A stretch of DNA of 58,729 nucleotides, taken from positions 1 through 58,729 of the IMG/VR virus record IMGVR_UViG_3300036719_005236; one strand, 5' to 3'. Shown in pieces: positions 12,990 to 57,009 of the stretch. The position numbers and the translations under genes are program-made. The first letter of the stretch is position 1, and each line of letters begins with the position of its first letter. This DNA comes from a virus. Under the pieces are notes generated by a model. The model saw only the letters and a program-made list of their open reading frames with translations, searched no databases and was not told the origin of the DNA.

Positions 12990-15900
12990 GTGAGTCTTTG
13001 TAAAAAACTTGTAATCAAAAACATATCTACTGTTGTTAGGGTTATCTCATACACTCGATGTTCGGATGGTTTGGTAATTTACAATTATCAAATTCCTGCA
13101 GGTGCTACAAGGACAATTTATTATAGAATATATTCTTATAGTACCGCATCTCCTCAAAGTTTTCAAATTTTATCGTTAGAAGATTGGCCGCCAGATTCAA
13201 CACCAACACCAACACCCACGATAACTCCTACGGTGACTCCTACGGTGAGTATTACTCCTACTAATACTGCTTCACCAAGTCCAACGAGAACGAGTACTCA
13301 AACACCTACACAGACCTCCAGTGGGACTGCAACGCCAACACCTACACCAACCGTAAGTCCAACTCAAACTCCAACTAACACACCTACACCTTCAATTACT
13401 CTGTCGGCAACAAATTCACCAACACCGACAAATACAAATACTCCAACTCAAACGTCAACTCAAACACCTACGAGTAGCGTTACTCCATCAAATACGCCAA
13501 CGCCAACAATAACTGAATCACCAACAGCAACACCAGGTGAAACTCCAACTCAAACTCCCACAAATACTGCATCTAATTCTCCTACACCAACAAATACGGA
13601 TACTCCGACCCAAACTCCATCCCAAACACCAACATCGACGGTCACTAGTACTCCTACGGTAAGTATTACATCATCTCCAACAGCAAGTAATACCCCAACT
13701 AATACTCCTACAAATACTGTTACCGCAAGTAATACTGTTACACCAACACAAACAGAAACTCCAAGTCCAACACCCGGAGAATCTCAGACTCCGACACCAT
13801 CGGTAACCCCAACAATTACCTTGTCTCCAACAAATAGTGGTACACCGACTACAACACCAACCAACACATTCACACCAACTCCTTCGATAACATCATCACC
13901 TACGGAAACTCCAAGTCCAACACCTGGAGAAACACCATCTCCGACCGCTTCGATTACACCTACAAATACGCCGACACAGACCTCAACAACAACACCAACT
14001 AATACTCCATCAAACACTGGAACTCCGACTAACACGCCGAGTCCTACTGTGACTGATACCCCAACCCCAACTCCTGGAGAATCTGCAACTCCAACTCCGA
14101 CTCAAACAGGAACACCAACAAATACTCCAAGTAACACGGCATCTCAAACTCCAACACAGACTGAAACACCAACAAATACTCCAAGTAATACAGCGTCTCA
14201 GACTGCAACACAAACACCAACGCAAACTGAAACACCAACAAATACTCCAAGTAATACAGCGTCTCAGACTGCAACACAAACACCAACGCAAACTGAAACG
14301 CCAACCAATACTCCAAGTAATACCGCGTCTCAGACTCCATCTCAAACACCTACTCAGACCGGTACACCAACAAACACTCCGAGCAACACGGCATCTCAAA
14401 CTCCATCTCAAACGCCAACTCAGACTGGTACACCAACCAACACGCCAAGTAACACAGCTTCTCAGACTGCAACACAAACACCAACTCCAACTGAAACACC
14501 AACAAATACTCCAAGTAATACAGCTTCCCAAACTCCGACTCAGACTGGTACACCAACAAATACTCCAAGTAATACAGCATCTCAGACTCCATCTCAAACG
14601 CCAACTCAGACCGGTACACCAACAAACACTCCGAGCAACACGGCATCTCAAACTCCATCTCAAACGCCAACTCAGACTGGTACACCAACCAACACGCCAA
14701 GTAACACAGCTTCTCAGACTGCAACACAAACACCAACTCCAACTGAAACACCAACAAATACTCCAAGTAATACAGCTTCCCAAACTCCGACTCAGACTGA
14801 AACACCAACAAATACGCCAAGTAACACGGCTTCTCAGACTGCAACACAAACGCCAACTCAAACCGGCACACCAACAAATACTCCAAGTAACACGGCTTCT
14901 GAGACCCCAACTCCGACACCGACACAGACTCCAACCCCGACACAAACATACACTCCTACCCCAAGTTTAACAGCATCAGTCACTCCAACAGAAACTCCGA
15001 CTCAAACACCCGAACCAACTTATTGGTCAATTAATGAATTGACAAATTGTTGTACTGGAGAACGATATAATCCTGGGGTTCTTGTTAGTTTATCTTCGAC
15101 AGCACCTCAAAATGGTGACACAATTTCTGTGAATGCCGATGGTACAGGAATCAAGTGTTGGACAATCACGAGTGAGGTCACACCAATATCACCAGAATCT
15201 GGAGAATATATCATAACTAATTATGGTCCTGAGAACTGTGAAATTTGTGTGTTGACATACCCATGTCCTTCACCAACTCCTACTCCAACTCAGACACAGA
15301 CTCCAACACAAACTCAAGCGGAATTGGTTTATATCTTGGAAGAATGTCCAGGTGGTGGTGATGTAATATATGCTAACTTTATAAATGCCGGAGCACCTAA
15401 TAACGACGTAGTTTATATTAATTTCGATGGAGGAAGTGGTTGTTATATAGTCGTAGAAGGACCAATTTTAGCACCAGCTGATGTATATGTACTTAGTAAA
15501 ACTGACCAAACTGCTTGTAATACTTGTAATGTGTCTCCAACTCCAACACCTACTCAGACAAGAACACCAGCGGCAACCCCAACGGTGACCCCGACTAAAA
15601 CTCCAACTTCAACCCCAACAAGGACTCCAACTGGAACACCTACAACAACACCTACACCTACGAAGACCAAGACACCAACTCCAACTAAGACTAAAACACC
15701 AACTCCAACGCCGACTCCGACTGGTCCTTGTAGTTGTAGTGGTCAACTTCCTTGTCTTGGACCAACAAGTGGGTATGATTTCACCATAAAAGAAGTGATT
15801 GGTGGTACTACGTCAACTGCTTTGTGGCAGAATATTTCTGAATGGGAAACATGGCTTGGTTGGAAATCATGGAGTTTTGGTGGTGGTGAACCTTGTACTA

Positions 15901-16373
15901 GTAATCCTGGTAGTGTTCAGCCGATTAGTCAGAATAAACCAAATACAAATACTGGTAATGGAGTTGAAAAAACCACCTCAGTAAATGACTATTTCACAAG
16001 GTGTTATCTTGTTGTTGTTGGGTTTAGATATGTACAATCAGGTGCCACCCCAAGTAGTAATATAAGACTTTCAGTTGGTAATGGTTATGGAGATTGTAGT
16101 TATGGAGTATTTGATATTCCAAACCCAATTAGTGGTACATATTATTCATTCCAATGTCAGATACCTAACATGACTGCGCCTAATCTTGTAATCGGACTAT
16201 ATACACCTGTTTACAGTCCATATAATTCATGTTTTTCACCTGGTTCATTATCCTGTTGTTATACAACCGCTCAAGGTTCCACGAACTATGTTTGTCCTGC
16301 TGGTCTATGTTCAAGTTCAACTGGTTGTGACCCGTATTGGCAAGGTTCTTGTCCTTTAGGTGATGGGTGTTGA
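12990..16373 (+). CDS. Pro/Thr-rich repeat fibre-like structural protein 1, 1127 aa
   Basis: A large, probably virion-surface protein. It starts with GTG; a TATTTATA box ends 18 bases upstream. Residues 1-70 form a small ordered N-terminal domain, likely the attachment part. Residues 71-677 are a mucin-like stalk of Thr, Pro, Ser, Asn and Gln with 22-residue units (pattern [20 protein letters not shown]). Two Cys-rich domains follow (about 678-760 and 777-848), separated by short PT linkers. After a last PT/Lys linker (849-911) comes a Cys-rich C-terminal domain (912-1127) with [19 protein letters not shown] and many Cys pairs. The architecture suggests an adhesin on a stiff extended stalk, possibly O-glycosylated by the phage's own transferases; both points are inference. 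Confidence 0.75.
13200..15020 (+). repeat. Thr/Pro-coding tandem repeat tract
   Basis: About 1.8 kb of degenerate repeats built on ACNCCNACN codons inside the first fibre-like gene. From about 14100 the units are regular, for example two nearly identical 66-base units beginning at 14163 and 14229. The codon choices vary between units, so most copies have diverged by substitution while keeping the amino acids. Confidence 0.9.
14352..14799 (+). repeat. exact 196-base direct repeat, period 252
   Basis: Bases 14352-14547 are repeated without change at 14604-14799, 252 bases (84 codons) downstream and in frame. Unlike the older, diverged units around it, this copy is exact, so the duplication is recent. 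Confidence 0.9.
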
Positions 16374-29421: not shown

Positions 29422-29783
29422 ATTCTATAAGAATCTGAATCAAAATGAGAAGTGGAAACCTCGAAAATTATACCATCACTCAATGCCTCTAATTGATGAG
29501 GTTGACCAGGTAGTTGACGAACTGTGTCCCCCTCTTTTAATTTATTTTCGATTACAGAGCCGTTTTCTGTATCTATCCATCGATAAATGAATTCTCCTTC
29601 TTTGACATACCAAGTTTCATCTTTCAAAAGATGATAGTGCATGGAAAACTTCATACCCTCTTTGAATACGAGAAGTTTCCCACAATAGAGGTCATTGTTT
29701 TCAAAAATAATTTCATGACCCCATCCTTTTGGGATGGTACAACTACTGGATTCTTTTGCGTTATAAATTATTGGTTTTTCCAT
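29394..29783 (-). CDS. cupin-type sugar isomerase-like protein
   Basis: A single-domain cupin of 129 residues. Metal ligands are visible in MHYHLLKDETWYVKEGEF (His-x-His, then Glu) and GQPHQLEAL (second His). The motif GWGHEIIFENN followed by YCGKLLVFKEG is like the type II mannose-6-phosphate isomerase cupins and related sugar-nucleotide cupins. It overlaps the nucleotidyltransferase gene by 28 bases and abuts the GDP-mannose epimerase gene (TAATG). A role in mannose-derived donor supply is plausible. Confidence 0.72.
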   Translation of the reverse strand: MEKPIIYNAKESSSCTIPKGWGHEIIFENNDLYCGKLLVFKEGMKFSMHYHLLKDETWYVKEGEFIYRWIDTENGSVIENKLKEGDTVRQLPGQPHQLEALSDGIIFEVSTSHFDSDSYRIWPGDNQNL

Positions 29784-30904
29784 TAGATAATATCCCTTTC
29801 AAGTTTTCCAAATTCTCTACGATACACTGTATTACCTTTGTCGGGACTTTCGTAGATGTAAACGTTTTCGGATTTGTTTTTTATAACCTGTTCTTCAATC
29901 CAACTATATGTTTTTTCCATACCTTCTCTAAGTGTTAACTTTGATTCCCAACCCACTTTTTCACGGTAAAGTTTGTTATCAGAGTTTCTACCTCTGACAC
30001 CAAGAGGACATGGGAATCCATATTTATTTACGAATGTTTCACCCTCAATATTTTTGATTTTGATGTCTTTTCCTGATAAATCGATAGCAATTTGTGCAAG
30101 TTCGTTGATTGTTACCATTTCCTCAGAACCTATGTTCACTGGTTCAACAAAATCACTTTCCATTAATCTAAGAACCGCTTCAACACACTCATCAACATAA
30201 AGAAATGAACGTGTTTGTTGTCCATCACCCCAAACCTCTAATTGATATTCGGGTCTTGATTGACCCGGTATTTTGTCCCAATCGTTTACCTCTGCGGCTT
30301 TTCTACACATCGCAGCTGGAGACTTCTCTTTACCACCCTTCCATGTTCCTTGTGGACCAAATACATTGTGGAATCGGGCAATTCTTACATCCAATCCATA
30401 GTTTCTCTTAAATGCCAAAAACAATCTTTCTGAAAATAGTTTTTCCCACCCATATTCTGAATCAGGGTTAGCAGGATATGCCGAAGATTCTTCACAATTT
30501 GGATTATTGGGGTCCAACTGATTATGTTCAGGATACATACAAGCTGAGGAGGAATAGAAAACTTTACCCACTTTCTTTTTTGCCGATTCATGACAAACAT
30601 TCAAATTAATCAATGCTGAATTATGCATCACATTTGCATCGTTTTCACCCGTGAAAATATAACCAGCTCCCCCCATATCTGCGGCCAGTTGATAAAGTTC
30701 ATCAACACCTTCATCAATAACGAATTCCACTAACTTGGGGTCTGTTAAATCACCAACAATAAATTGGTCACAAATTTCTTTTTCATCGAAGTATTCATGT
30801 TTTTTCAAATCACAAATACGAACGTAATTCCCTTCAGATTTAAGTCTTTTTGCGAGGTGACCACCAATAAATCCGCCACCACCTAATACGATAATTTTTT
30901 TCAT
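29783..30904 (-). CDS. GDP-mannose 3,5-epimerase
   Basis: Converts GDP-D-mannose to GDP-L-galactose (and GDP-L-gulose). It is an extended SDR with Rossmann motif GGGGFIGG (8-15) and YxxxK at Tyr151-Lys155. Diagnostic segments match the plant enzyme: LAADMGGAGYIFTGEN, SSACMYPEH with Cys122, GTWKGGKEKSPAAMCRKA with the conserved Lys, GDGQQTRSF, and VRGRNSDNKLYREKVGW. I chose ATG 30904 (4-base overlap with the GT11 gene) over TTG 30916, giving 373 residues. The product would be a donor for an L-sugar transferase such as its upstream neighbour. Confidence 0.88.
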   Translation of the reverse strand: MKKIIVLGGGGFIGGHLAKRLKSEGNYVRICDLKKHEYFDEKEICDQFIVGDLTDPKLVEFVIDEGVDELYQLAADMGGAGYIFTGENDANVMHNSALINLNVCHESAKKKVGKVFYSSSACMYPEHNQLDPNNPNCEESSAYPANPDSEYGWEKLFSERLFLAFKRNYGLDVRIARFHNVFGPQGTWKGGKEKSPAAMCRKAAEVNDWDKIPGQSRPEYQLEVWGDGQQTRSFLYVDECVEAVLRLMESDFVEPVNIGSEEMVTINELAQIAIDLSGKDIKIKNIEGETFVNKYGFPCPLGVRGRNSDNKLYREKVGWESKLTLREGMEKTYSWIEEQVIKNKSENVYIYESPDKGNTVYRREFGKLERDII

Positions 30905-31731
30905 AATAATTTCCAATTTTCAGGATAAACATTTGATGTATCTAACACCATCGATGGATAAAAATTCTTTGGCGCAATTACGTTGTTTTTTTTGTTTAGA
31001 AAAGATGCCCACCATGAGAAAGTTGAGGCAAATGATGTAATATTATAATCACAAGATTTCATAAGGCTAAAAGTTTCAATATCATTAAAACCCTCTACAA
31101 ATACAATTCTTTCGTCTTTGAAATGCCTTTTACACCAATCAATGTCACTCTCCAAAACATTCTTTCTTGAACCCCCAGTAAATAATAAAATTGTTGAATC
31201 TCCGGGGATTTCCTTAAGTGCATTTGTATAATAATTGTAAAGAACTGACCCCTCTGAAAAATCATTGGACCACTGAGTATCAGTTGGGTTTGTACCATCA
31301 CTTACGTCTCCTCTTCTGACGTGTAATGAAACTGTGGTACCTAAATTATGTAGGTATTCATCAACTTTATCCTGAATTGAATTAATCATTTCAAATTCTT
31401 TGATAAGTAAGTCTCTGATGGGGGTGTAATAATTTGGATGTTGAAAGAATCCCATAAAGTCAGTGTTGTCTTTTACATCAAAAACATCGGTATCAAAAAT
31501 TCGGAGTTGTTTTTCATGGAAATAGTTTTTAATATCTAAATTTCCATAGGTACAGGATGGGAGTTTGAAATTTCCCATGAGGCATTGTTGTCCGTGCCAA
31601 TTTCTAACATTAATATCTTTTGGTAATACAATTTCAAATCCTGTTTTATTTTGGACTGACTTCAAAATTGCATATTGAAATAACTGATTTCCTAATCTTC
31701 CGTATTCTCCTAAATGACTAAAACTTATCAT
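30901..31731 (-). CDS. GT11-family alpha-1,2-L-sugar (fucosyl)transferase
   Basis: Matches family GT11. It has the N-terminal GRLGNQLFQYA (11-21), the donor-binding VSLHVRRGD (134-142), and ITSFASTFSWWASFLN near residue 240. GT11 enzymes usually transfer L-fucose from GDP-L-fucose. Here the neighbouring gene (4-base overlap) makes GDP-L-galactose, which differs from GDP-L-fucose only at C6, so L-galactose may be the sugar moved. That is inference. Length 276 residues is normal. Confidence 0.88.
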   Translation of the reverse strand: MISFSHLGEYGRLGNQLFQYAILKSVQNKTGFEIVLPKDINVRNWHGQQCLMGNFKLPSCTYGNLDIKNYFHEKQLRIFDTDVFDVKDNTDFMGFFQHPNYYTPIRDLLIKEFEMINSIQDKVDEYLHNLGTTVSLHVRRGDVSDGTNPTDTQWSNDFSEGSVLYNYYTNALKEIPGDSTILLFTGGSRKNVLESDIDWCKRHFKDERIVFVEGFNDIETFSLMKSCDYNITSFASTFSWWASFLNKKNNVIAPKNFYPSMVLDTSNVYPENWKLL

Positions 31732-36364: not shown

Positions 36365-37531
36365 TTAGAAATGGATTGATATCCCTTCGGGTTTAGACCC
36401 TTCGGTGTAGAATTTTACCCTATTACCAAAATCATTTGATAATTCCGACAAAAGTTTTCTGTCATTCAAAATGTAATCACACTCAATGATATTAACAGAA
36501 TACCCGTCATTTAATAAGTCATACATTAATCTCAATTGTTGTGATTCAACCAACATATCAGTTCCCTTTTTATAGGTTATATGATTCATAACAAATGGTA
36601 CATTTTTGTCGGGATTAATTGTTTCCCAATGGTTTCTCAAGAATTGTGAGTGACTTTCATTGAAATCATCAACTGCGTATGGAAGATTTACTTTGAGTCC
36701 TAAAGCTGATGCAAAGTGACCTAAAGCTCTATTATCTCGTGGTAAACATGGTCCACCAAATCCAAAACCATAATTCAAATATTTGAAACCAACTCTCGAG
36801 TCATTACCTATTGAATGTAATACCAACTTAATTTCATCAGACAAACCAGCGCTTGTTAGAATTTCACCAATCAAATTGGCATAACTAATTTTGGTGGTTA
36901 GAAAACAATTTATTGATATTTTTGTAACTTCCGCAGCCATTGACGACATTGAATTAATCTTAACAGGTATTGTTTGAATTTTAGAATATATCTTAGAGAG
37001 GGTATTCACACTATTTTGATTAGTTGACCCAATCAAAACCATATCGGCCTGTTCCAAACCTTTGATAATTTCACCTTGAGCTATGAATTCTGGATTGTAA
37101 CAAACATCAATATTCATTGGATTCAAAATATCCATAATTTTTCTTGTATCACCAGGATTGGTTGTGCACCCAATAACAAATATTTTTCCAAAAACAGGTA
37201 TTTCGTTTTCAAATGCCCAACCCCAATCATGCACAACATCCATTAAATACGTAATGTCGTATTCACCAGTTGGTTTAGAAGGAGTTGATACAAAGGTGTA
37301 AACAACATCACATTGTTCAATGACCTTCACATTATCTGTTGTTGCAGAAAATTTTGTGGTTTTTTGGAGTAACTCCAACACACCAGGTTCATTGGTCTGA
37401 ATTAATTTTTTATTCAAACCATCGATGTAATCTTGTCTTACGTCTGAAACTAATACATCAAACCCTGCTTGTTCACAGAGTAGTGCAAAAGTTATCCCTA
37501 ATCGTCCAGCACCAATAACTCCTATTTTCAT
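36365..37531 (-). CDS. UDP-sugar 6-dehydrogenase (probably UDP-ManNAc dehydrogenase)
   Basis: NAD-dependent two-step oxidation of a UDP-sugar to its uronic acid. It has N-terminal Rossmann GVIGAGRLG (4-12), the family's FVSTPSKP, NPEFIAQGE (with the Lys/Glu neighbours), and the active-site segment GFGFGGPCLPRD with Cys262. Length 388 is slightly short. The substrate is uncertain between UDP-Glc and UDP-ManNAc; the adjacent UDP-GlcNAc 2-epimerase favours UDP-ManNAc. It overlaps NAD synthetase upstream by 4 bases; the reaction consumes NAD. Confidence 0.85.
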   Translation of the reverse strand: MKIGVIGAGRLGITFALLCEQAGFDVLVSDVRQDYIDGLNKKLIQTNEPGVLELLQKTTKFSATTDNVKVIEQCDVVYTFVSTPSKPTGEYDITYLMDVVHDWGWAFENEIPVFGKIFVIGCTTNPGDTRKIMDILNPMNIDVCYNPEFIAQGEIIKGLEQADMVLIGSTNQNSVNTLSKIYSKIQTIPVKINSMSSMAAEVTKISINCFLTTKISYANLIGEILTSAGLSDEIKLVLHSIGNDSRVGFKYLNYGFGFGGPCLPRDNRALGHFASALGLKVNLPYAVDDFNESHSQFLRNHWETINPDKNVPFVMNHITYKKGTDMLVESQQLRLMYDLLNDGYSVNIIECDYILNDRKLLSELSNDFGNRVKFYTEGSKPEGISIHF

Positions 37532-45520: not shown

Positions 45521-48500
45521 ATGGCGTATCAGAACATAAATCAGTATGTATATAATAAGTGGTATTTGAGTCCCGTTAGGGAGGTCACAGATATATCATT
45601 GGCCTCAGATGAGTCCCAATTTAACGAAGAAGTTGTATTTTCAACAGACGTTATTGGTGCCTCGAATGGTAATGTAATGCCAGTCAAAATTGATTTGAAT
45701 TTTTCAGGTTCAAACCAAGGATTCAATTTAATATATCAAAACTATAATTTTGATAATATTTTGATTTCTTCAAACTACTATAATCCATATGACATATCTT
45801 TGGATTGTTTCTCTTCTAAAACTATTTGTGATATTGGTTTAACAGGTACTGACAATGGATTGGTAACAGGTATGACAGGTCAGTCTATCACTTATATGGA
45901 GGGTTTACTTCCATCGGCAGACAAGTTCAACAGATTGGATTATGATAGAAGATTCAAAATGCACCAAGTTACAGGATATACTTGGAATCCAAACGAAAGA
46001 TTTTCAGGTGTTACTGCAGGAACATATTATAACATAGTTTCATACACCGCAAACACAATCGGAACATACCATGAACTTTATGGTGGTTTTTATCAAGGGT
46101 TTTATAAACTGTTTGGATACCCATATGAGGTTTTACCAACAAGATATCCAAAAGGATGGACTGTCGAAATGACCCTGAAACCAAGATTTACTGATGCTTA
46201 CATCCCTCCTGTTGGAGCAACAACTCTAAATGACTATTACCCTGATAATTCAGGTATTTTCTTTTACATGGGAACTCGTGCCGAGAATAAATATTGGCAC
46301 CATGCGGCTGGAGAAAATCCGACAGATTCTGGATATACAAGGGTTACAGAATCTTTGACAGGATTATCCTCTTGTATGTGTTCTACTCTGAATCCTGGGT
46401 ATAGTACAGTTTCTTACACTGAATTTGATTTATCTCAGTCAGGGGTTACAATATCCATTCCAGCGAATTTAAGTTGGTCGGGTGGTGACCAAATTTTAGT
46501 TTACCATGACCCACTACAATATGTTATAGGGACTGTTCTAAACTATAGTGCCTCTACCGGTGAATTACAATTTACAGTAACCAAGAGAGTTGGAAAAGGT
46601 AATTTTCATGCATGGGTTGTAGACCTTCCGGATTACTTAGATTATGCTTTATCTAACTGTGTTTTGGTATATCCACCAACTGGCTATACTGACTATCACA
46701 ACGTTGTTTGTAGTTGTTGTAATCCAAATGTCCAAATACCTTTACCTGAAAGACCTGCTTATTGGGACTCCATCTCAAACGCCTTCGCAATTAAATTTAG
46801 TGGAGACCCACATAATCCAAAAATTTGTGTTAGAACATTAACGTTTACTGGCGACTGCCAACTTTCAGGGTCTTGTGAAACGTTGGGGCCTGAGACTGTA
46901 ACAGGATACTCAATCAATAATTATTGTAGTGATAGGGGTATATATGATGATTGTTCTGGAACTACATTTGACAATATAGAACATTGGGTATTAGTTGACG
47001 CTGTTTTCGAAAGATATTCATGGTTTGATTTCTGTGATTTATATTGGAGAGGGGGGTTAGGTGTAATAACTAATGACATTTACACCGCCACGTCCGCAAA
47101 TAGGTCCATATCACTTATTGAACCACCCATAACTCATGAACAATTAATTCCGCCAAAAGAAGAATATGTTCAATTGAATTATGAATGGTTATTAGAACGA
47201 TTCTATAGAGTTGGTAAGTTAAAACTGTATGTTAATGGAAAACATTTTCAAACTTTTGACGATTTTGAGGAAATAATTCCAAGAGGATTATATGGACATA
47301 AAGAAAATCAAGTTGGAGTCCCATTTAATATTTCTTGGGGTGGAGGTACACAGGGATTACACGAGAATTTGATATTTTCGGCGATTCCAACTACGTTAAT
47401 TAACAATTATATTCAAGACCCTGAGTTATTTCCTGAAAATATTTTAAGTGGAACTAGTTTGAGTGCCTTAACTACAAATATATTAATTGAACAAAATTTT
47501 GCTGGAACTTTTGATGGTGCAATTTCTACATTCCACATGTATGCAAAACCACTTTCAGTTCCTGAAATTCAACACAACGCAAGAATTTTAAGACCAATCT
47601 ATAGTCTTACGAACCCATATTGTTTGGATTGTTCTATTCCTCCAACTCCAAGTAATGCGGCAACCCCGACCCCTACTCCAACGATAACTTCTTCACCAAC
47701 TCTTACACCTTCAAATACCGTAACCCCAACCAAAACAGCGACTAATACGCCGACGCCATCCATAACACCGACTAATACGTCCACACCTCTTGTTACAGAG
47801 TCAAATACTTCAACCCCAACAGAAACACCGACGAACACTCCAACCCCTTCGATAACCACATCTATTACACCAACACCAACAAAAACACCGACTAACACTC
47901 CAACACAAACGGTCACTCCGACTGCAACTGTAACACCTTCGGCAACTCCTTTTGTTCCAACTTGTTTGATATTGTACGATGAAGGGTTTTCATATATTGC
48001 CCAATCTTTAGGTATCCTTAATGGAAAACCATATTGGGAATATTATTTTGGTTATGGGGTTATAGAACTTTACCGTCTATATTGGGACGGAACACAATGG
48101 GTTCAAGAATTGTTGTCAAGTTCAACCATAGTCGCCACAAACCCAAATGGTGTGAATTTTCCAACCCAATTAGATTGGGTTGGGTCAGGATTTTCTTATG
48201 TACATTACACTTCACAACAAGATTGTAATGATTGGTGTATAGACCCTGCTTTAACAGATTATTTATGTTCTGTAAGTGGCACGACCGACAATGGGGATAT
48301 AAACGGGAAAAGGTCATTTACATTTGATATTATCCCTTATGGATTACCACCAACTCCTGTTGGTTATACTTTGTATTGGGATGGAGCACAATGGATACTC
48401 GAGAATGAATTTGGTAGTATCTGTGCCACCTCTTCTTATAACACCTTTGCTCCGCCATCTTATTTCTTATGGTCTTACCCCTCTCCTGCTCCTGTAGATT

Positions 48501-49069
48501 GTGATTGTGTAGATGGAATTTCAGGTGGTTTTTCCGCAGGAGTTTATAGTGGTGAGTGTGACCCATCAATTTCTGGTTTCCTGTTTTGGAGTGGGGATTA
48601 CAATCCAGGTTCTTTACTAACGGAATATAATGTATGGTCACCATTCATCTTAGACGCTAATTTAACGGTGAGTTGTGACGCAATATTCACCACAACAACA
48701 GGAGACCCAATTACTCAAAGTGTTACGATGACAATACCTATTGGTGGATTTTCTGCCAATACATTTACTCAAACAATTGATACTCCTTATGATGTGTTTA
48801 CTCAAGATGTGGTATTCGAGGGTTTTGTAACTAATTTATCTGGTGATTCTGTGTTCACAGGATTCACAATTACTACACAATCAACTTGGGCACCGAGTCC
48901 GTCTAACACACCAACCAATACTCCTACAAATACTGAAACACCAACTCAAACGCCAACCAATACAATAACTCCTACAAATACCGTAACACCAACTCCAAGT
49001 CAGACACCAACACAAACCTCTTCAGAGACTCCAACCCCCACCCCAACAGTAACATCAACACTTCTTTAA
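45521..49069 (+). CDS. Pro/Thr-rich repeat fibre-like structural protein 2 with LamG-like part
   Basis: A 1182-residue probable virion surface protein. Residues 1-700 form an ordered beta-rich region: [20 protein letters not shown], then [20 protein letters not shown] and [20 protein letters not shown]. The latter resembles the end of a concanavalin/LamG-like sandwich. Residues 706-810 are a Thr/Pro-rich linker. Two WDGxQW domains ([12 protein letters not shown] and [11 protein letters not shown]) with paired Cys follow (about 810-1000). A further beta part comes next, and a second Thr/Pro-rich tail (1125-1182) ends in [11 protein letters not shown]. It lies directly upstream of a GlcNAc transferase gene. 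It may carry O-glycans (inference). Confidence 0.75.
47640..47950 (+). repeat. Thr/Pro-coding repeat tract in fibre 2
   Basis: A degenerate tandem tract of ACNCCN codons encoding [17 protein letters not shown]-like units, similar in type to the long tract in the first fibre-like gene but much shorter. A second short tract ends the gene at about 48895-49066. Confidence 0.8.
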
Positions 49070-49137: not shown

Positions 49138-49182
49138 ATCAAACAATAGTATTCAACTTTTAGATTGTTTAATTATTTTTTT
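49138..49182 (+). terminator. possible terminator hairpin after fibre 2
   Basis: ATCAAACAAT (49138-49147) can pair with ATTGTTTAAT (49164-49173) at 9 of 10 positions over a 16-base loop, followed by a T-rich run. The stem is AT-rich and the loop is long, so this is a weak candidate. It is the only structure I see in the 126-base gap. Confidence 0.35.
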
Positions 49183-49195
49183 GAAAAACTTTTTC

Positions 49196-50443
49196 ATGAA
49201 AATATTTGTGCAAATTGCGGCTTACCGTGACCCCCAACTTATACCAACTATAAAGAATATGTTGGAAAACGCTAAAAGACCAAAGAATTTAAGGTTCGCG
49301 ATAGCGAGACAATTTCATCCTGACGACAAATTTGATGAACTAACAGAATACGAAAAAGATTCACGATTCAGAATTATGAACATTCCTCACGAGGAGTCGA
49401 ATGGTGTCTGTTGGGCTAGAAATTTGACCCAACAATTATATGATGGTGAGGAGTATACTCTTCAAATTGACTCTCATATGAGATTTGCTCCTAATTGGGA
49501 TGATGAAATGATTAAGATGGTTAAACAACTTCAAAAGAAAGGTTATAAAAAACCTCTGTTGACAGGATATGTTTCATCTTTTGACCCCGATAATGACCCA
49601 CAAGCAAGAGTACAGGAACCATGGAGAATGGTTTTTGACAGATTTATTCCTGAAGGAGCCGTATTTTTTCTACCCGAAACTATTCCTGGTTGGAAGGAGC
49701 TAAAAGAGCCAGTACCGGCTCGTTTTTATTCGGCACACTATTGTTTTACTTTGGGACAATTCTCAAATGAGGTACAACACAATCCTGAATATTATTTCCA
49801 TGGTGAAGAAATTTCAATTGCGGCAAGAGCATACACTTGGGGTTATGACTTATTTCACCCTCATAAAACTTTGATTTGGCACGAATACACTCGAAAAGGT
49901 AGAACCAAACAATGGGATGATGATAAACAGTGGGTTGACAAAAATAATCATTCACATTTGACAAATAGGAAACTTTTTGGTATGGACGGTGAGACACAAG
50001 AAGGTCATGATGGTCCATTTGGATTTGGTACGGAAAGAACCCTCAGAGATTATGAAAAATATTCAGGTTTGTTATTCGAAAAAAGAGCTGTCCAACAATA
50101 TACTTTGGAAAAACATTATCCACCTAACCCTTATAATTTTGAATCGGAAGAAGAGTGGAAAAAACATTTTGCATCGGTATTCAAACATTGTATTGATGTT
50201 GGATATTCTTCGGTTCCTGAAACAGACTATGATTTTTGGGTTGTTGCATTCCATGGACCAAATGATGAAACATTGTTCAGAAAAGATGCCGACAAAAATG
50301 AAATTGCTCGTATGAAAAACGACCCTGATGGGTATTGTAAAGTTTGGAGAGAATTCCAAACTGAAACTAAGCCAGTTTATTGGGTTGTGTGGCCTCACTC
50401 AGAATCCAAGGGTTGGTGTGACCGTTTAACAGGTAATTTATAA
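49196..50443 (+). CDS. GlcNAc-transferase, GT60-like (PF11397)
   Basis: I chose ATG 49196 over a TTG at 49181; 415 residues. It matches the family of UDP-GlcNAc:polypeptide GlcNAc transferases: VQIAAYRDPQLIPTIKNMLE at the start, GVCWARNLTQQLYDGEEYTL and LQIDSHMRFAPNWDD with the DSH metal motif. GYVSSFDPDNDP, SAHYCFTLG and FHGEEISIAARAYTWGYDLF follow. In eukaryotes the family adds GlcNAc to hydroxyproline (Skp1) or to Thr in mucin-like proteins. Here it lies immediately downstream of a Thr/Pro-rich fibre gene on the same strand, which suggests that fibre as acceptor (inference). Confidence 0.83.
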   Translation: MKIFVQIAAYRDPQLIPTIKNMLENAKRPKNLRFAIARQFHPDDKFDELTEYEKDSRFRIMNIPHEESNGVCWARNLTQQLYDGEEYTLQIDSHMRFAPNWDDEMIKMVKQLQKKGYKKPLLTGYVSSFDPDNDPQARVQEPWRMVFDRFIPEGAVFFLPETIPGWKELKEPVPARFYSAHYCFTLGQFSNEVQHNPEYYFHGEEISIAARAYTWGYDLFHPHKTLIWHEYTRKGRTKQWDDDKQWVDKNNHSHLTNRKLFGMDGETQEGHDGPFGFGTERTLRDYEKYSGLLFEKRAVQQYTLEKHYPPNPYNFESEEEWKKHFASVFKHCIDVGYSSVPETDYDFWVVAFHGPNDETLFRKDADKNEIARMKNDPDGYCKVWREFQTETKPVYWVVWPHSESKGWCDRLTGNL

Positions 50444-50444
50444 G

Positions 50445-51209
50445 ATGGAAGTTTGTTTTGTTGCGGATTGTCATTATCCAAACTACACAAAAAGACTTAA
50501 ATCCAATCTCCTCCAAACATTTATTGATTTGGAGTTGGATAAATATGGTTTTACTTTTTTGGTATCAACAAACAGACCTGAAGATTTTCAAGACATCGTA
50601 AACGACAAAATACATGTTTTTCATATTGATGAACTAAGAAAAGATTTTCCAATTTCTAAACAATATGAAACTTTACCTGAAGACCCATCAGGAATTTATC
50701 CTGCGGGATTTCATTGGGGCTTGGAGCGTTTTCTTTTGAAAAAGGCTGCTGATATGGGATTCAAATGTGTTGTGAATTTTGACTCAGATGTGATTTTGAA
50801 TAATCTAAAATCGGGGAATAATCTATTGGACTTTTTTAAGAAGAATTATCAACCAAACATAATCATGACCAATCAAGCAACGATGTTGTATCAAAAAGGT
50901 TCAGAGAATGAAATATTTTATTTGCATGACAAGTATATAAATCATTTTGGTTTGGATTTTCAAGATTCTGAATATACAACGATGGACGGTCCGGTAATCT
51001 GTTATATGGGTGAAACTTCAGAGGATTTGCAAAGATATTTTAGAAATTGGAATGAGTTAACTGAATTCAGTTATAAAAAAGAACATGGGTATGGATATGG
51101 TGGTATTGTGTGTGGGATTTGGTCCTTAACAATTCCGATGTCGGGTTTCAAACTTAAATGGAATGAAATGCCGTTCGTACCCCATCACGTTTATTCAGAT
51201 AGGTATTAA
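50445..51209 (+). CDS. putative GT-A-type glycosyltransferase
   Basis: A 254-residue soluble protein with MEVCFVADCHYPNYTKRL at the start and VVNFDSDVILNNL near residue 110, a DxD-type metal motif. The middle has GFHWGLERFLLKKAADMGFK. The C-terminal part (GYGYGGIVCGIWSLTIPMSG) is rich in Gly and aromatic residues. I cannot place it in a numbered family, so the call rests on the DxD motif and on its place between two transferases. It starts one base after the GT60-like stop. Confidence 0.6.
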   Translation: MEVCFVADCHYPNYTKRLKSNLLQTFIDLELDKYGFTFLVSTNRPEDFQDIVNDKIHVFHIDELRKDFPISKQYETLPEDPSGIYPAGFHWGLERFLLKKAADMGFKCVVNFDSDVILNNLKSGNNLLDFFKKNYQPNIIMTNQATMLYQKGSENEIFYLHDKYINHFGLDFQDSEYTTMDGPVICYMGETSEDLQRYFRNWNELTEFSYKKEHGYGYGGIVCGIWSLTIPMSGFKLKWNEMPFVPHHVYSDRY

Positions 51210-51210
51210 T

Positions 51211-52740
51211 ATGTTTAAGATATTAGGAAGAGAATTAGGAGAAAAGGGTTTCTTCGTTAACTTGGATTCATCAATCGATAGATTTGAAGGAATCATGAAA
51301 CAAGTTGATAAATTTGAAATTGAAGGGTTAGAAAAGTTTTCAGCTTTGAGTGACCCTTTAATTCAATTTGCATGCACCAAAAGTCATTTGGGTATTTTTG
51401 AAATTGCAAAAAATGAAGGTTTGGAAACAATCGTTGTTTTGGAAGACGATATGCAGATTTTGGAAAATCCTTATATCGGTTCACAGAAATTTGAATTATC
51501 TGAACAATTGGATAAATTGTTGGTTGATATGAACAATCTTGAATGGGATGTCATTTTATTGGGTTGCAATCCAAAAACCTATTTGATTCCTGTTACAGAA
51601 AATTTATCAGAAAACTATTCAAGTAGTGGTTCATGGGCGTATATCATCAAACGTAAAGCTTATGAATACATTCTTGAAAATTCAAATTATTATAAAGATT
51701 ATATTGCTATTGATGATTGGTTGGCAAAATTGGCTCATAATGGATTCAAAGTATTTGCCACGACACCTCAAATAATTCATCATGGTACAAGTTATCAATC
51801 AACATTACAACCAAGAGGTTTGGTAAATTATACCGCGTGGATTGATGGAAATTGGGAAGGTTATTTATACAAGTTCCTTCAAGGCAGAACCATGAAAGAG
51901 TTGGTAGATGATTATGAATTAGAAAGAGAAATTACAATTGTTGTGGTTGGCCATTTCGTCGAAAACTTTTTATTCTATCTTCGATACCTCCTAAAAACAA
52001 TACCGAAACAATTGGAAAGATGTCGTTTCTTGGTTATCTATGATAACAATCACAACACACAGAACCCATTACCTTTGGAATACTATTTCAAAGACCGTAA
52101 TAAACCAATGAACTACAATATCATTTATTCCAAAACCGGTATTTCTCATAGTATGAAGTTGGCTTTGGAAAATGTTAAAACAAAATATTTTTTATTTTTA
52201 GAACACGATTGGATTTTCTTGGAAAAAAGACCGATTGACTTTGTTAGTTTGAAAAGAGCTTTTGATAATCACAATTTTGTAAATGCGGTGTGGTTTAATA
52301 AAGACGACAATCAATTGAAGGGATTTGAAATTTGTGGAGATAGATTGGGTAACGTTACACCTTATGAACAAGAAGACCGTGTGACCGAATGTGATTTGAC
52401 AAAGACAATACGTTGGTCAAACAATCCTGTGATGTTTAGAAAATCAAAAATGCAAGAATGGTTTGATAAATATATAGATAACGATTCAATCGGTAAAATT
52501 CACCAAGGACAGTATAATGTTGAGGATAATATGATTCGAGTTTATAGACAAACAATTGAAGAAAGTGTTTGGGAAGAAATTAAAGATGATTGGGGAACAT
52601 TTTTACATGGCAAACCAGGTGATTGTGAATTAGTTGGTCACACAGATGGCTCAAGAAGATACCAAACGTCAATTAGAACTATGGCCGAAGATAATGCCGA
52701 TGAATATGTAAAAAATAATCCTTTACCTGAAAATGATTAA
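51211..52740 (+). CDS. two-domain glycosyltransferase (GT25-like plus GT-A)
   Basis: I chose ATG 51211, right after the preceding stop; the in-frame ATG at 51163 lies inside the previous gene. Residues 1-235 resemble GT25 enzymes: GFFVNLDSSIDRFEGI, ACTKSHLGIFEIA, VVLEDDMQIL with the EDD motif, SWAYIIKRKAYEYI and AIDDWL. Residues 245-509 look like a second GT-A domain: ITIVVVGHFVENFLFYLRYL, FLFLEHDWIFLE and NPVMFRKSKMQEW. 509 residues, soluble. It presumably adds two sugars in sequence. Confidence 0.72.
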   Translation: MFKILGRELGEKGFFVNLDSSIDRFEGIMKQVDKFEIEGLEKFSALSDPLIQFACTKSHLGIFEIAKNEGLETIVVLEDDMQILENPYIGSQKFELSEQLDKLLVDMNNLEWDVILLGCNPKTYLIPVTENLSENYSSSGSWAYIIKRKAYEYILENSNYYKDYIAIDDWLAKLAHNGFKVFATTPQIIHHGTSYQSTLQPRGLVNYTAWIDGNWEGYLYKFLQGRTMKELVDDYELEREITIVVVGHFVENFLFYLRYLLKTIPKQLERCRFLVIYDNNHNTQNPLPLEYYFKDRNKPMNYNIIYSKTGISHSMKLALENVKTKYFLFLEHDWIFLEKRPIDFVSLKRAFDNHNFVNAVWFNKDDNQLKGFEICGDRLGNVTPYEQEDRVTECDLTKTIRWSNNPVMFRKSKMQEWFDKYIDNDSIGKIHQGQYNVEDNMIRVYRQTIEESVWEEIKDDWGTFLHGKPGDCELVGHTDGSRRYQTSIRTMAEDNADEYVKNNPLPEND

Positions 52741-53296
52741 TATGAAAAATTTAGAAAAAATTTATAAAGAACACTGTGAAAGATATTCAGACATACAAGA
52801 ACATCTTCCAACATTAAAAAAATACACTGAAGAATGTGAGCACGTAACAGAAATGGGTGTAAGATATGTTGTGTCAACTTGGGCGTTTATGATGGGTAAA
52901 CCTAAAAAATTAATTTCGATGGATATCTTACCCTTGGAACATTTTGATATAAAAACTGAGGATTTAGTTCAAATTGCAAAAGATAACGGAGTTGATTTTG
53001 AATTCATAGTTGCGGATACAACAAAAGTAGAAATTGATGAAACCGATTTGTTATTTATCGATACATGGCATGTGTATCAACAATTAAAAGTAGAACTCGA
53101 AAAACATGGTAACAAGTCAAGAAAATATATCATCATGCACGACACCACTATTTTTGGTGAAGTTGGTGAAGGTCGTGAAGGTTTAGGACTGTGGAAGGCT
53201 ATTGAAGAATTTTTAGAGATTAATCCACATTGGTCGGTTCATGAAAGATACACTAACAACAATGGATTAACTATTCTGAAAAGAAATGGAAATTAA
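52733..53296 (+). CDS. small SAM-methyltransferase-like protein
   Basis: A 187-residue protein with the pattern of a class I methyltransferase-like domain: HVTEMGVRYVVSTWAFMMGK near the N-terminus and KLISMDILPLEHF as strand 2. ADTTKVEIDETDLLFIDTWH (strand 4, Asp motif) and YIIMHDTTIFG at strand 5 follow. The Gly-rich SAM loop is degenerate (EMGVRYVVS), so catalytic activity is uncertain. It overlaps the previous gene by 8 bases; ATG 52742 is an alternative start. It may modify a sugar or act as a decayed homologue. Confidence 0.6.
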   Translation: MINMKNLEKIYKEHCERYSDIQEHLPTLKKYTEECEHVTEMGVRYVVSTWAFMMGKPKKLISMDILPLEHFDIKTEDLVQIAKDNGVDFEFIVADTTKVEIDETDLLFIDTWHVYQQLKVELEKHGNKSRKYIIMHDTTIFGEVGEGREGLGLWKAIEEFLEINPHWSVHERYTNNNGLTILKRNGN

Positions 53297-54707
53297 TTTT
53301 ATTATAACCTGTTTTGATAAAGAAGAATATTGGCCACATTTGAAAGAAATTTTAGATTCTTTTTCAAAAATTAAACCTAACTATGTTCTTGTGTATAATG
53401 GAGAAAATGAAAACTTTATTTGTGATGCAAGATTAAAAAATGAAGTCAATGCTGGAAGAGGGAATAGAGCACATGAACATGCTTGTCTTTATGCGGAAAA
53501 TGATTGGTTTTTAACTAAACAGGGTTATGATTTATTGAAAGATAATGGAGTTACTAAATGGATAAAATTATCCGTAGACAGTTGGATGTTGGACGAACAG
53601 ATAATAATTGATTTGTTTCAAGAAATGTTACAAACAAAGTCTGTTTATGGTGGTAATGTTTGGTATAGTCCTATAAACTATTCTACAGATATTTTTTTCT
53701 TAGAAACTTCTGAAATAAATTTATTTGAGGAAATGTCCAAAAATAGTGAAGAATTTTTTGGTTTTTTATATAGAAACGAAATACCAACAGGTTTTGAAAA
53801 TTTTATGAGCTATCACGTAATACCTCACAATCATCTAATTTTTCTTGACAGGGAAGAATTAGATGAGTCGTCTACTCGATGGAGAGTTGAAAAGTTGGGT
53901 TGGACAATGAGTCACCAAATTGATGAAAATCATGATTTTAGAAAAAAATACAAACCAATTGGGTATAAACCAAAAACTTTATTAAGAGAAGGTAATGGTA
54001 TTCCCTACTCGAGGAAATTTTATTTGGAAGACACTGGTTTAATAAATAGACATAAACTTGTTTTGGGATTAGGGCACCCAAGGACTGGTACTGGTCATAC
54101 GGCGAGAATTATGAAAAGTTGGGGATTGAGAGTTTCCCACGAAGGAATGGATTTACATGGAATTGTTGCGTGGCAATTAGCTCCTGATGCGGCACCACCT
54201 TTGATTGCCATGAATCGGGAACGTAAATTATTTAGAAATATGTACGTGTATGACGCTATTGTCTATAACGTTCGAGACCCTTTTTATTCCTTACCTTCGA
54301 TTGCCTTTTCCGAAATATATTCTTTGGAATGGAGAAGTTTTTGGGGAAACTTCAAACTACAACCGAACATTTTGACAATGGCAATCGAATCACTTCTTTC
54401 TTGGGACAATATGATTATAAATAAAAATCCAAATATTACTTATCGTATAGAAGACCAAGATGATTACTTATATCGTGAGTTGGAAAAATTATTTCCGGAT
54501 GTGGTCAAATGGACCGATTTAGAAGTTAATAAAGCACACAACTCACGACCACATGATGGTTGGGATAAATTATCTGGTTTCATATCAGACGTTCCACATC
54601 ATTTATTAGAAAAATTAAACGACTATGCCGAAAAGTATGGTTACCAAAAAGTTTTTAACACACAAACATATGAACTCGAAAATACAAGAAGCGTATCACT
54701 TTCATAA
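53286..54707 (+). CDS. fusion: GT-A-like domain plus sulfotransferase-like domain
   Basis: Residues 1-230 start as a GT-A-like fold (INFIITCFDKEEYWPHLKEI, GRGNRAHEHACLYAENDWF, KWIKLSVDSWML). Residues 255-473 look like a PAPS-dependent sulfotransferase. KLVLGLGHPRTGTGHTARIM holds the 5'-phosphosulfate loop (GHPRTGTGH, 263-271), and VYNVRDPFYSLPSIAFSE has the 3'-phosphate Arg330-Asp331. KWTDLEVNKAHNSRPHDGW follows near the end. Such a fusion would add a sugar and a sulfate group to a glycan. It overlaps neighbours on both sides. The sulfotransferase half is the surer part. Confidence 0.68.
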   Translation: MEINFIITCFDKEEYWPHLKEILDSFSKIKPNYVLVYNGENENFICDARLKNEVNAGRGNRAHEHACLYAENDWFLTKQGYDLLKDNGVTKWIKLSVDSWMLDEQIIIDLFQEMLQTKSVYGGNVWYSPINYSTDIFFLETSEINLFEEMSKNSEEFFGFLYRNEIPTGFENFMSYHVIPHNHLIFLDREELDESSTRWRVEKLGWTMSHQIDENHDFRKKYKPIGYKPKTLLREGNGIPYSRKFYLEDTGLINRHKLVLGLGHPRTGTGHTARIMKSWGLRVSHEGMDLHGIVAWQLAPDAAPPLIAMNRERKLFRNMYVYDAIVYNVRDPFYSLPSIAFSEIYSLEWRSFWGNFKLQPNILTMAIESLLSWDNMIINKNPNITYRIEDQDDYLYRELEKLFPDVVKWTDLEVNKAHNSRPHDGWDKLSGFISDVPHHLLEKLNDYAEKYGYQKVFNTQTYELENTRSVSLS

Positions 54708-57009
54708 TATTCAAGTAGATGGTTCAATCATCAACCATAATCAAATTTTCAGTATAATTGAAAACCTTTCATCTGTTTTAGAACAAGGGTTGCATGGTGA
54801 TATTGTAGAACTTGGTTGTTATGTTGGTGAATCCTCAAAATACATCCGTAAAACATTAGATGTTTATAATTCAAATAAAACTCTTACGGTCTACGATTCA
54901 TTTGAAGGATTACCTCCCCTTAGTAAACATGAAGAAGGTACTGGTTGGAAACCATTTACCTTAAAAACAAGTCAAGAAGTTTTAATTGAGAATTTCAGGA
55001 ATAATAATCTTGTTGAACCGAAAATTGTTAAGGGGTGGTTCAAAGACATAAGGGAAGAAGATTTACCTGAAAAAATTTGTTTTGCTTTTTTGGATGGTGA
55101 TTTTTATGATTCAATTTATGATAGTTTGGTAAAAGTTTATGATAGAATGGTTGAAGGTGGTATAATCATGTTTCATGATTTCAGAAGAAATGATTTACCT
55201 GGTGTGGATGCCGCGGTACGTGATTTTTTTAGAGAAAGAGGTATTGAATATAACTTGGAAGAAGTTGTTGAACAAGTTGGTCGTCACATTGTTGGTGGAC
55301 CTATCCCCCAAGAAACACAACAAATTGAAGTAGTAGATTCGGGTTTAACTTTAGTTACGGGTCTTTGGAACATTAGACGTGAATCACTAACCGAGGGTTG
55401 GTCACGTTCTTTCGAACATTATTTAGATAAATTTTCACAACTACTCCAAGTTGAAAATAACATGATAATTTTCGGGGACGCTGAATTGGAAGAGTTTGTT
55501 TGGAAACATAGAACCCGTGAAAACACACAATTTGTGGCTCGGAATCAAGATTGGTTCAAAAATGAATTTTATGAGAAAATTCAAAAAATCAGAACAAATC
55601 CAAATTGGTTTACTCAAGCAGGTTGGTTGACTGAATCTACCCAAGCAAAACTTGATATGTATAACCCGTTGGTGATGTCAAAAATGTTTTTATTACATGA
55701 TGCCAAAATAATTGATTCATTTAATTCGAAATACATGTTTTGGATTGATGCCGGTCTTACCAACACCGTTCATCCGGGATACTTTAGTCATGACAAAGTT
55801 TTAAGAAATCTACCGGAATATATTAACAAATTCAGTTTTGTATGTTTCCCATATGAAGCAAACAGTGAAATTCATGGTTTTGAGTTTAATTCAATTAACA
55901 AACTTGCGGGTAATAAAGTACAAATGGTTGCTCGTGGAGGATTTTTTGGAGGTCCTAAAGACACCATATCAGACGTAAACACAATTTATTACAATTTGAT
56001 GTCTTCAACGTTATCTATGGGTCTGATGGGCACTGAAGAGTCCCTGTTCTCAATAATGTGTTACAAACACTCGGATTTAGTAGACTATTTTGAAATTGAG
56101 AGTAATGGACTATTTGGTAAATTTTTCGAAGATTTGAAAAACAAAAACTTGGAAAGAAAAAACAAACTTTTGTTAACTCCATTAAATGATGATTTGAATG
56201 TCGAAAATAGTGCTGTTTATGTAATAACATTTAATAGTCCAAATCAGTTTGAGACTTTGATGAAGTCAATGGAGTTGTACGATAGAGATTTTATTGATAA
56301 ACCAAAAAAATTCTTACTCGACAACTCTTCGGACTTAACAACAACTCAACGATATGTTGAGCTCTGTGAAAAATTTGGATACCAACATGTAAAAATGGAT
56401 AATTTAGGTATTTGTGGTGGTAGACAATGGATTGCTGAACATGCCGAAGAAAACGGTTTTGATTTTTATTTCTTTTTCGAAGATGATATGTTTTTCTATA
56501 TGGGCGAAGATAAAGTCTGTAGGAACGGTTTTAATAGGCATTTGAAAAACATTTATACCAATTCAATTGAAATTGTAAAAAAATACCATTACGATTTCTT
56601 AAAATTTAATTATACCGAATTTTATGGTGATAACGGAGTTCAATGGTCGTGGTATAATGTCCCACAAGTATTTAGAGAAAAACATTGGCCCCATAAATCA
56701 CAGTTGCCTGTGATGGGTACCGACCCAAATGCTCCAAGAAGCCAATTCAAAAATATTAGAGTCCACAATAATATTCCTGTCATCGATGGAGAAATCTATT
56801 ATTGTAACTGGCCTCAGGTTGTTACAAAACATGGAAACAGAAAAATGTTCTTAACGGACAAATGGGCACATCCATTTGAACAAACATGGATGAGTTATAT
56901 GTTCCAAAAAACTATCGAAGGAACATTATCTCCCGCAATGTTATTGGCAACCCCAACTGAACACAATCGATTCGAATTTTACGATGGTTCCTTAAGAAAA
57001 GAATCTTAA
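54670..57009 (+). CDS. fusion: TylF-like methyltransferase, HtrL/YibB-like, GT-A
   Basis: I chose ATG 54670 (MNSKIQEAYHFHNIQVDG), 779 residues; 54625 and 54637 are in-frame alternatives inside the previous gene. Part 1 (about 1-215) is TylF-like: DIVELGCYVGESSKYIRKTL, TVYDSFEGLPPL, ICFAFLDGDFYDSIYDSLVK and IIMFHDFRRNDLPGV. Part 2 (about 230-500) resembles HtrL/YibB: LTLVTGLWNIRRESL, then FGDAELEEFVW and YMFWIDAGLTNTVHPGYF. Part 3 (about 535-779) is a GT-A domain: VYVITFNSPNQFETLMKSME, FYFFFEDDMFFYMGED. It probably caps a glycan by methylation and adds sugars; the order is inference. Confidence 0.68.
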   Translation: MNSKIQEAYHFHNIQVDGSIINHNQIFSIIENLSSVLEQGLHGDIVELGCYVGESSKYIRKTLDVYNSNKTLTVYDSFEGLPPLSKHEEGTGWKPFTLKTSQEVLIENFRNNNLVEPKIVKGWFKDIREEDLPEKICFAFLDGDFYDSIYDSLVKVYDRMVEGGIIMFHDFRRNDLPGVDAAVRDFFRERGIEYNLEEVVEQVGRHIVGGPIPQETQQIEVVDSGLTLVTGLWNIRRESLTEGWSRSFEHYLDKFSQLLQVENNMIIFGDAELEEFVWKHRTRENTQFVARNQDWFKNEFYEKIQKIRTNPNWFTQAGWLTESTQAKLDMYNPLVMSKMFLLHDAKIIDSFNSKYMFWIDAGLTNTVHPGYFSHDKVLRNLPEYINKFSFVCFPYEANSEIHGFEFNSINKLAGNKVQMVARGGFFGGPKDTISDVNTIYYNLMSSTLSMGLMGTEESLFSIMCYKHSDLVDYFEIESNGLFGKFFEDLKNKNLERKNKLLLTPLNDDLNVENSAVYVITFNSPNQFETLMKSMELYDRDFIDKPKKFLLDNSSDLTTTQRYVELCEKFGYQHVKMDNLGICGGRQWIAEHAEENGFDFYFFFEDDMFFYMGEDKVCRNGFNRHLKNIYTNSIEIVKKYHYDFLKFNYTEFYGDNGVQWSWYNVPQVFREKHWPHKSQLPVMGTDPNAPRSQFKNIRVHNNIPVIDGEIYYCNWPQVVTKHGNRKMFLTDKWAHPFEQTWMSYMFQKTIEGTLSPAMLLATPTEHNRFEFYDGSLRKES

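Follow-up and report, generated by a model that had tools for sequence, protein, structure and literature searches.

A putative sulfotransferase domain fused to a probable glycosyltransferase in a variable glycan block of a phage

Do phages sulfate the sugars that they build? The question is raised by one gene of the virus record IMGVR_UViG_3300036719_005236 (IMG/VR), analysed here over its whole 58,729 nucleotides (hereafter the window). An earlier reading, made from the letters alone (the sequence-only reading), had described the open reading frame (ORF) at 53286-54707 as a glycosyltransferase (GT) joined to a domain resembling sulfotransferases dependent on 3'-phosphoadenosine 5'-phosphosulfate (PAPS). 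We consider it fairly probable that this gene encodes a two-domain glycan-decorating enzyme, with a sulfotransferase C-terminus and a probable GT-A N-terminus, which would draw PAPS from the host and act on a glycan built by the phage. More generally, the results suggest that some phages sulfate sugars they build.

The ORF was recovered at these coordinates on the + strand (as were the motifs, domains and block genes described below), from an ATG start to a stop at 54705-54707, encoding 473 amino acids (aa). The protein was identical over 473 of 473 residues to one from a second contig (IMGVR_UViG_3300044645_002658), which agreed with the window at 10441 of 10444 compared bases, the two contigs possibly deriving from one common sample. 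The ORF is confirmed as real and its C-terminal half as beyond chance, because relatives of that half occur in 32 other loci and its key motif residues are invariant. The record of the fused form with this N-terminus, one sequence and perhaps one sample, would also fit an artefact of assembly, or gene decay that has left the sulfotransferase non-functional in this phage. This is very unlikely, however: the frame is open over 473 codons with intact motif residues, its start overlaps the upstream gene, and a second, different sulfotransferase-GT fusion was found in another locus (L218, see below).

The C-terminal domain (residues 251-473, 54036-54704) was predicted to adopt a sulfotransferase fold. 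AlphaFold2 modelling with a 25-row alignment (A3; the window domain and 24 relatives at 28-42% identity, including near-identical and a few truncated members) yielded a predicted local distance difference test score (pLDDT) of 85.3 and a predicted template modelling score (pTM) of 0.84; a single-sequence model of the whole 473-aa protein (pLDDT 32.9) was set aside. The closest VIA-align matches were tyrosylprotein sulfotransferase 2 (TPST2; Z 10.8 over 179 residues, 4.1 Å) and the sulfotransferase domains of CurM (Z 10.8, 177 residues) and of an olefin synthase (Z 10.4, 173 residues). The sequence-only reading had named, as evidence that would count against it, a best match to another P-loop family with the PAPS-contacting residues absent. 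Rows 1-22 were instead sulfotransferases, mostly aligned across nearly the whole domain, and the contacts are present; the count includes Teg12 and Teg14, which we take to be sulfotransferases, their titles being silent on the matter. The first 8 Foldseek rows against PDB were also sulfotransferases (E 0.014-0.054), and the predicted model displayed the beta-sheet architecture of the PAPS site. In BFVD, only A0A5J6VJR2 matched below E 0.001 (E 9.5e-11, 22% identity); this Megaviridae protein of 1202 aa is named 'Capsular polysaccharide synthesis protein' and may itself be a giant-virus fusion of a glycosyltransferase with a sulfotransferase. Several entries with viral sulfotransferase annotations came next, at E > 0.01.

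The residues expected of a PAPS site were found in the domain. An excerpted definition of the superfamily lists a Lys or Arg in the 5'-phosphosulfate-binding (PSB) loop, a Ser in the 3'-phosphate-binding (PB) motif, a beta-sheet and a Glu or His base (PMC11625862). The window domain has Arg266 in its PSB loop and Ser338, with Arg330 eight residues before it, in its PB motif. The 5'-phosphosulfate loop noticed earlier is GHPRTGTG at residues 263-270 (54072-54095), within an L-G-x-G-H-P-R-T-G-T stretch invariant in A3. The Arg-Asp motif, said to follow about 60 residues later, is NVRDP at 328-332 (54267-54281), with 64 residues from Arg266 to Arg330; it opens the PB motif NVRDPFYSLPS (54267-54299), in which Arg330 and Ser338 are invariant. 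For the general base, to which attention had also been drawn, the candidate is Glu286 in the invariant pair His285-Glu286 (54138-54143), with a TPST-like spacing of 20 residues after Arg266. Counting residue 251 as 1, the invariant columns of A3 include LGxGHPRTGT, W29-G30, H35-E36, Y77, R80, P82, S88, R137 and E139. Farther along, YRIED (386-390; 54441-54455), with invariant Arg and Glu, resembles the RYEDL stretch of sulfotransferases (compared with that of CurM), and NSRPH (419-423; 54540-54554) carries a family motif NxRxH near the C-terminus, invariant in alignment A2 and nearly so in A3. The fold matches, taken with the invariant PSB Arg, PB Arg/Ser pair and candidate base, support the sulfotransferase part of the sequence-only reading. 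In the proposed mechanism, Arg266 would hold the 5'-phosphosulfate and Arg330 with Ser338 the 3'-phosphate; Glu286 would deprotonate a sugar hydroxyl, and in-line transfer would leave a sulfate ester and 3'-phosphoadenosine 5'-phosphate (PAP). The N-terminal GT-A-type domain would probably add the sugar, one protein thereby extending and sulfating the same chain.

Known structures shared these spacings at low identity. TPST2 (PDB 3ap3, 3ap1) resembled the window domain in fold over 178-179 residues (Z 10.8 and 9.8; root-mean-square deviation 4.1), in its P-loop Arg (PRSGTT) and in its VRDG......S motif (VRDGRASVHS), but the two were 10-14% identical and the window domain is shorter and fused to a probable GT. 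The CurM and Synechococcus olefin synthase domains (4gbm, 4gox; Z 10.8 and 10.4) shared the fold, a PRSG loop (PRSGST in CurM) and VRHP......S (VRHPYSVIES in CurM) at 13-14% identity, but they act within polyketide synthases. Counted on alignments, the distance from the PSB Arg to the Glu was 20 in the window protein, 20/21 in TPST2 and 21 in CurM, and that from the PB Arg to the Ser was 8 in all three.

Profile comparison gave ordered but weak support for a sulfotransferase. With hhalign, the family profile scored 22.8 against the Sulfotransfer_3 set (reached by 0 of 60 column shuffles) and 20.3 against the Sulfotransfer_1 set (2/60), these two sets having members in common, ahead of thymidylate kinase (17.2; 5/60), CoaE (16.8; 7/60) and GT2 (13.7; 23/60); 2 of 25 CoaE loci and 1 of 29 GT2 loci were left out of the sets as too short, and L159 was also not included.

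Several results weigh against the sulfotransferase assignment. When the window sequence was used singly, CoaE (20.24; 2/60 shuffles) came close to the Sulfotransfer_3 set (20.88; 0/60). The Asp of the Sulfotransfer_1 consensus RXXXDXXXS is absent, with Tyr334 in its place, and all Foldseek E-values to PDB exceeded 0.001 (first 8 rows > 0.01). The families to which the sequence-only reading had pointed (PF00685, PF13469) did not recognise the domain at Pfam cut-offs: none of the 17 members scanned reached one for any sulfotransferase, the best rows lying at E 0.14-0.23 (0.14 for Sulfotransfer_1 and _3, PF00685 and PF13469; 0.17 for Sulfotransfer_4, PF17784), with 11.7 bits for the window domain against a Sulfotransfer_4 cut-off of 22.8. 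One member scored better to ComA (E 0.01). Searches of PDB sequences returned no sulfotransferase, either with the family profile (hmmsearch; top row ShosT, E 0.094) or with the whole protein and its homologue from phage C48C1 (phmmer), and the full-length 473-aa protein was assigned to no family by Pfam, PHROG or NCBIfam. NCBIfam rows on the C-terminal domain to citrate synthase (E 0.12) and cytochrome b559 (E 0.16) were deemed chance.

The near tie with CoaE bears on whether the domain could be a P-loop kinase or another nucleotide-binding fold, an explanation that we regard as highly improbable. Kinases with the common P-loop fold did appear among the structural matches, the first non-sulfotransferase at rank 23 being 1uf9 (TT1252; Z 8.2 over 116 residues), which we take to be a dephospho-CoA kinase, along with the dephospho-CoA kinase 1vhl (Z 7.9) and adenylate kinase 5 (Z 7.8). 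Yet the kinase rows spanned 113-128 residues against 177-179 for sulfotransferases, and CoaE and thymidylate kinase scored close to their shuffles with the family profile. The loop GHPRTGTGH, furthermore, lacks the Gly-Lys-Ser/Thr of the Walker A motif GxxxxGK[ST] of P-loop kinases, and the Arg...Ser (+8) pair is invariant. The domain is best described, from the predicted model, as a likely divergent member of the PAPS-dependent sulfotransferase superfamily.

The C-terminal domain, about 210 residues, belongs to a small and apparently virus-borne family. Relatives were found in 32 loci besides the window's phage, with strict search patterns (LGLGHPRT) that may miss remoter ones. IMG/VR scans gave 30 contigs, the window's own phage not counted. 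Among 50,697 phage records, tblastn gave a sole match, a stand-alone hypothetical protein of 196 aa in C48C1 (Kyanoviridae; 36.5% identity, E 6e-25). The remaining relative lies in one bacterial-genome record, the only one among 37 pattern matches in bacterial genome contigs, and the family profile run against 296 bacterial genomes of one phylum matched only that same contig (L033; CALPIE020000118.1, titled a Bifidobacterium breve metagenome-assembled genome). This contig is probably of phage origin and misbinned, since the fused domain is accompanied there by a GT2 gene and repetitive fibre-like ORFs. A tblastn search of plasmids gave a best match of only E 5. Most members stand alone, at about 195-250 aa, and they would widen the sulfotransferases beyond current Pfam models with enzymes compact enough (about 200 residues, in some cases joined to glycosyltransferases) for direct assay.

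In three members (L006 3697-4878, L009 4553-5722 and L033 3074-4258), the domain is fused to a different and longer N-terminal part, in which an HPDK motif occurs. A J-domain suspected there from this motif was dropped, with no Pfam match in L006. A marginal family-profile match clipped by a contig end (L330 16789-17238, E 0.00097) was left out of the counts.

Genes around family members elsewhere pointed to sugar chemistry. In L014, the family gene is directly flanked by Gly_transf_sug (GT32-like, E 3.6e-6) and Glyco_transf_25 (E 2.2e-6) genes, and L011, L035 and L036 have a layout akin to it as judged by eye. An FkbM methyltransferase gene lies upstream in L027 and a GT2 gene nearby in L006 and L033. 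Around the C48C1 gene, most annotated proteins are hypothetical; a carbamoyltransferase and a glycosyltransferase are encoded 15-20 kb farther on. The best structural matches being tyrosylprotein and polyketide-synthase sulfotransferases, the domain might transfer sulfate from PAPS not to a sugar but to a protein tyrosine or a small molecule; the fusion to a probable GT makes this quite unlikely, as does the position of sulfotransferase genes next to those for GTs and sugar-type methyltransferases.

The N-terminal region (residues 1-250, 53286-54035) is probably a GT-A domain, judging from its sequence. Here the sequence-only reading fared less well: against a 28-sequence GT2 profile the region scored 22.6 with hhalign, above all 60 shuffles, but just 19 columns were aligned. 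Scores to other profiles were 12.1 (Sulfotransfer_3), 8.7 (CoaE) and 15.4 (thymidylate kinase). Against a GT function stand the DXD region, IKLSVDSW, which holds a single Asp (Asp98), the lack of any credible Pfam, PHROG or NCBIfam match, and the lack of any homologue of residues 1-250 in IMG/VR, phage records (best only E 7) and the fetched loci. Pfam rows to DUF6155 (E 0.064) and Tuberin (E 0.12) were deemed chance.

The sulfate donor would be supplied by the host. The sequence-only reading had seen no PAPS-synthesis gene in the window, in agreement with the absence of adenosine 5'-phosphosulfate (APS) kinase from all 12 phage records searched, including the window (the window and ten other contigs may be fragments, and ATP sulfurylase was not searched for). 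An excerpted account of Megavirinae glycan clusters describes a sulfotransferase (Ma461) with an APS kinase (Ma457) and suggests sugar sulfation (PMC10117803). As far as that account goes, the likeness lies in a viral sulfotransferase inside a glycosylation cluster, whereas those giant viruses have their own PAPS-making enzyme. If the window phage does use PAPS, this would be a host resource tapped during infection.

The window gene lies in a block bordered by two conserved glycan genes. The left border is a PF11397 glycosyltransferase (49181-50443; Pfam E 2.2e-65; phrog_24687 glycosyltransferase). The right border is formed by residues ~240-794 of the protein encoded at 54625-57009, which combines a TylF-like methyltransferase, HtrL_YibB and a TAGT-like region (Pfam, TAGT under its cut-off). 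Between them and upstream of the fusion gene are an unassigned gene related by sequence comparison to L246 7293-8000 (50445-51209), one with Glyco_transf_25 in its N-terminal part (51163-52740; Pfam E 4.7e-7) and a near-full-length relative in L228, and another unassigned one, of 187 aa (52733-53296), whose last 11 bases are shared with the fusion gene. Elsewhere in the window, PHROG matches included a nucleotide-sugar epimerase and a UDP-glucose dehydrogenase (29783-30916 and 36365-37531) as well as two more glycosyltransferases; given the epimerase and dehydrogenase, sugar nucleotides may be synthesised by the window phage itself.

The borders were conserved in related phages and the block between them highly variable. 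The PF11397 protein had 447 relatives among IMG/VR pattern matches, of which the best 80 (77-89% identical in that protein, so that counts are not independent) formed a near set. A YibB/TAGT homologue was found 0.8-5.3 kb downstream of PF11397 in 70 of these 80 loci; loci lacking a downstream match (10/80 near, 44/80 in a distant set) went uncounted. The 232 ORFs between the borders in the 70 loci fell into 75 clusters, and Pfam named among them FkbM and other methyltransferases, GT25, GT10, GT11, GT_PLOD, carbamoyltransferase and sulfotransferases.

The acceptor would most likely be a phage-built glycan, probably O-linked on Thr/Pro-rich fibre-like proteins. Two candidates were found in the window on the + strand. 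The first, a fibre-like ORF by inference (45521-49069, 1182 aa), has Thr/Ser/Pro-rich stretches with 39 [ST]P and precedes the block. The second is mucin-like (12990-16373, 1127 aa; phrog_15511), with 38.8% Ser+Thr, 149 [ST]P and tandem repeats of 54-66 bp. Taking a 40-aa segment with at least 70% Ser/Thr/Pro as criterion, such a segment lay upstream of PF11397 in 52 of the 56 near loci having at least 3 kb upstream, compared with 1/70 near loci downstream and 0/30 other viral loci. Two results weigh against this association: it was loose in the distant set (32/69 upstream, 21/76 downstream), and phages XacN1 and RAS14 showed no such segment up to 9 kb from PF11397. PF11397 presumably includes polypeptide GlcNAc-transferases, and the DSH of the PF11397 protein, invariant in 10 aligned sequences, resembles the DXH of polypeptide GalNAc-transferases. 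We infer that enzymes of the PF11397/YibB/TAGT type glycosylate the Thr/Pro repeats.

The sulfotransferase might instead act on a surface glycan or lipopolysaccharide of the host, for instance excluding later phages, rather than on the phage particle. Block genes do resemble lipopolysaccharide and capsule enzymes (GT25, HtrL_YibB, FkbM and TylF methyltransferases), and many family members stand alone with no fibre-like gene directly adjoining. We nevertheless regard a host target as unlikely: a Thr/Pro-rich gene precedes the block in the window and in most near relatives, as counted above, and the L006, L009 and L033 fusions are located among repetitive, fibre-like genes.

Sulfotransferases recurred inside the block of near loci. 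Hidden Markov models (HMMs) detected others in 9 of the 70 (L175, L176, L177, L178, L187, L189, L191, L217 and L218), forming five clusters at 60% identity. Across the 80 near loci, six HMMs detected no sulfotransferase beyond the block borders (blocks making up 179,539 of 911,958 bases), a count partly biased by three of the six models having been built from block members; the independent Sulfotransfer_3/_1 models alone gave 3 inside and 0 outside. Pfam cut-offs were passed by five of the seven scanned (L176 and L218 for Sulfotransfer_2, L217 for _3, L178 and L187 for _4), those of L175 and L177 staying below. In L218, the gene at 1800-3083 encodes a fusion of Sulfotransfer_2 with GT_PLOD between PF11397 and YibB/TAGT. 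Its GT half shares ~74% identity with GTs that stand alone in L208 and L251. The L218 protein is thus like the window protein in uniting the two kinds of domain in this slot, but the sulfotransferase joined to a GT there is of another family, the GT is also a different one and the domain order is reversed. Against a general slot, the 36 distant loci with both borders held no sulfotransferase inside the block (99 ORFs by HMM, 52 cluster representatives by Pfam). A Sulfotransfer_4-like gene lay just after YibB/TAGT in 4 distant loci (L258, L260, L261 and L267).

Phage sulfotransferases are already known, and have so far been listed as auxiliary metabolic genes. Excerpted reports mention Sulfotransfer_3 genes in OM43 phage contigs, with a function called unclear (PMC10580990), and sulfotransferase auxiliary metabolic genes in estuarine viruses (PMC12285232). 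As far as the former excerpt shows, the OM43 phage genes are recognised by Sulfotransfer_3, unlike the window family, which stays under every Pfam cut-off and is fused in the window. In open-licence PubMed Central literature, no report was found of the divergent family, of phage sulfotransferase-glycosyltransferase fusions or of the recurrent slot. The neighbourhood described here points to a step in a changeable glycan-decorating block beside Thr/Pro-rich fibre-like genes. If so, sulfation would belong to the surface chemistries that phages change rapidly, perhaps to counter recognition by the host or to adjust charge.

A wider scheme may be put forward tentatively, as a possibility that falls short of probable. 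A widespread lineage of tailed phages would build its own mucin, PF11397 priming Thr/Pro-rich fibres, YibB/TAGT elongating the chains and the fast-changing block of glycosyl-, methyl-, carbamoyl- and sulfotransferases capping them, which would place sulfated mucin-type glycans on some virions. GT-sulfotransferase fusions would then have evolved separately at least twice, the window protein being one case, and its domain would be the founder of a new virus-borne family.

The pair of PF11397 and YibB/TAGT was also observed in the jumbo phages XacN1 (L256 9013-15970; Xanthomonas) and RAS14 (L257; Stenotrophomonas), and in XacN1 a carbamoyltransferase lies between the two.

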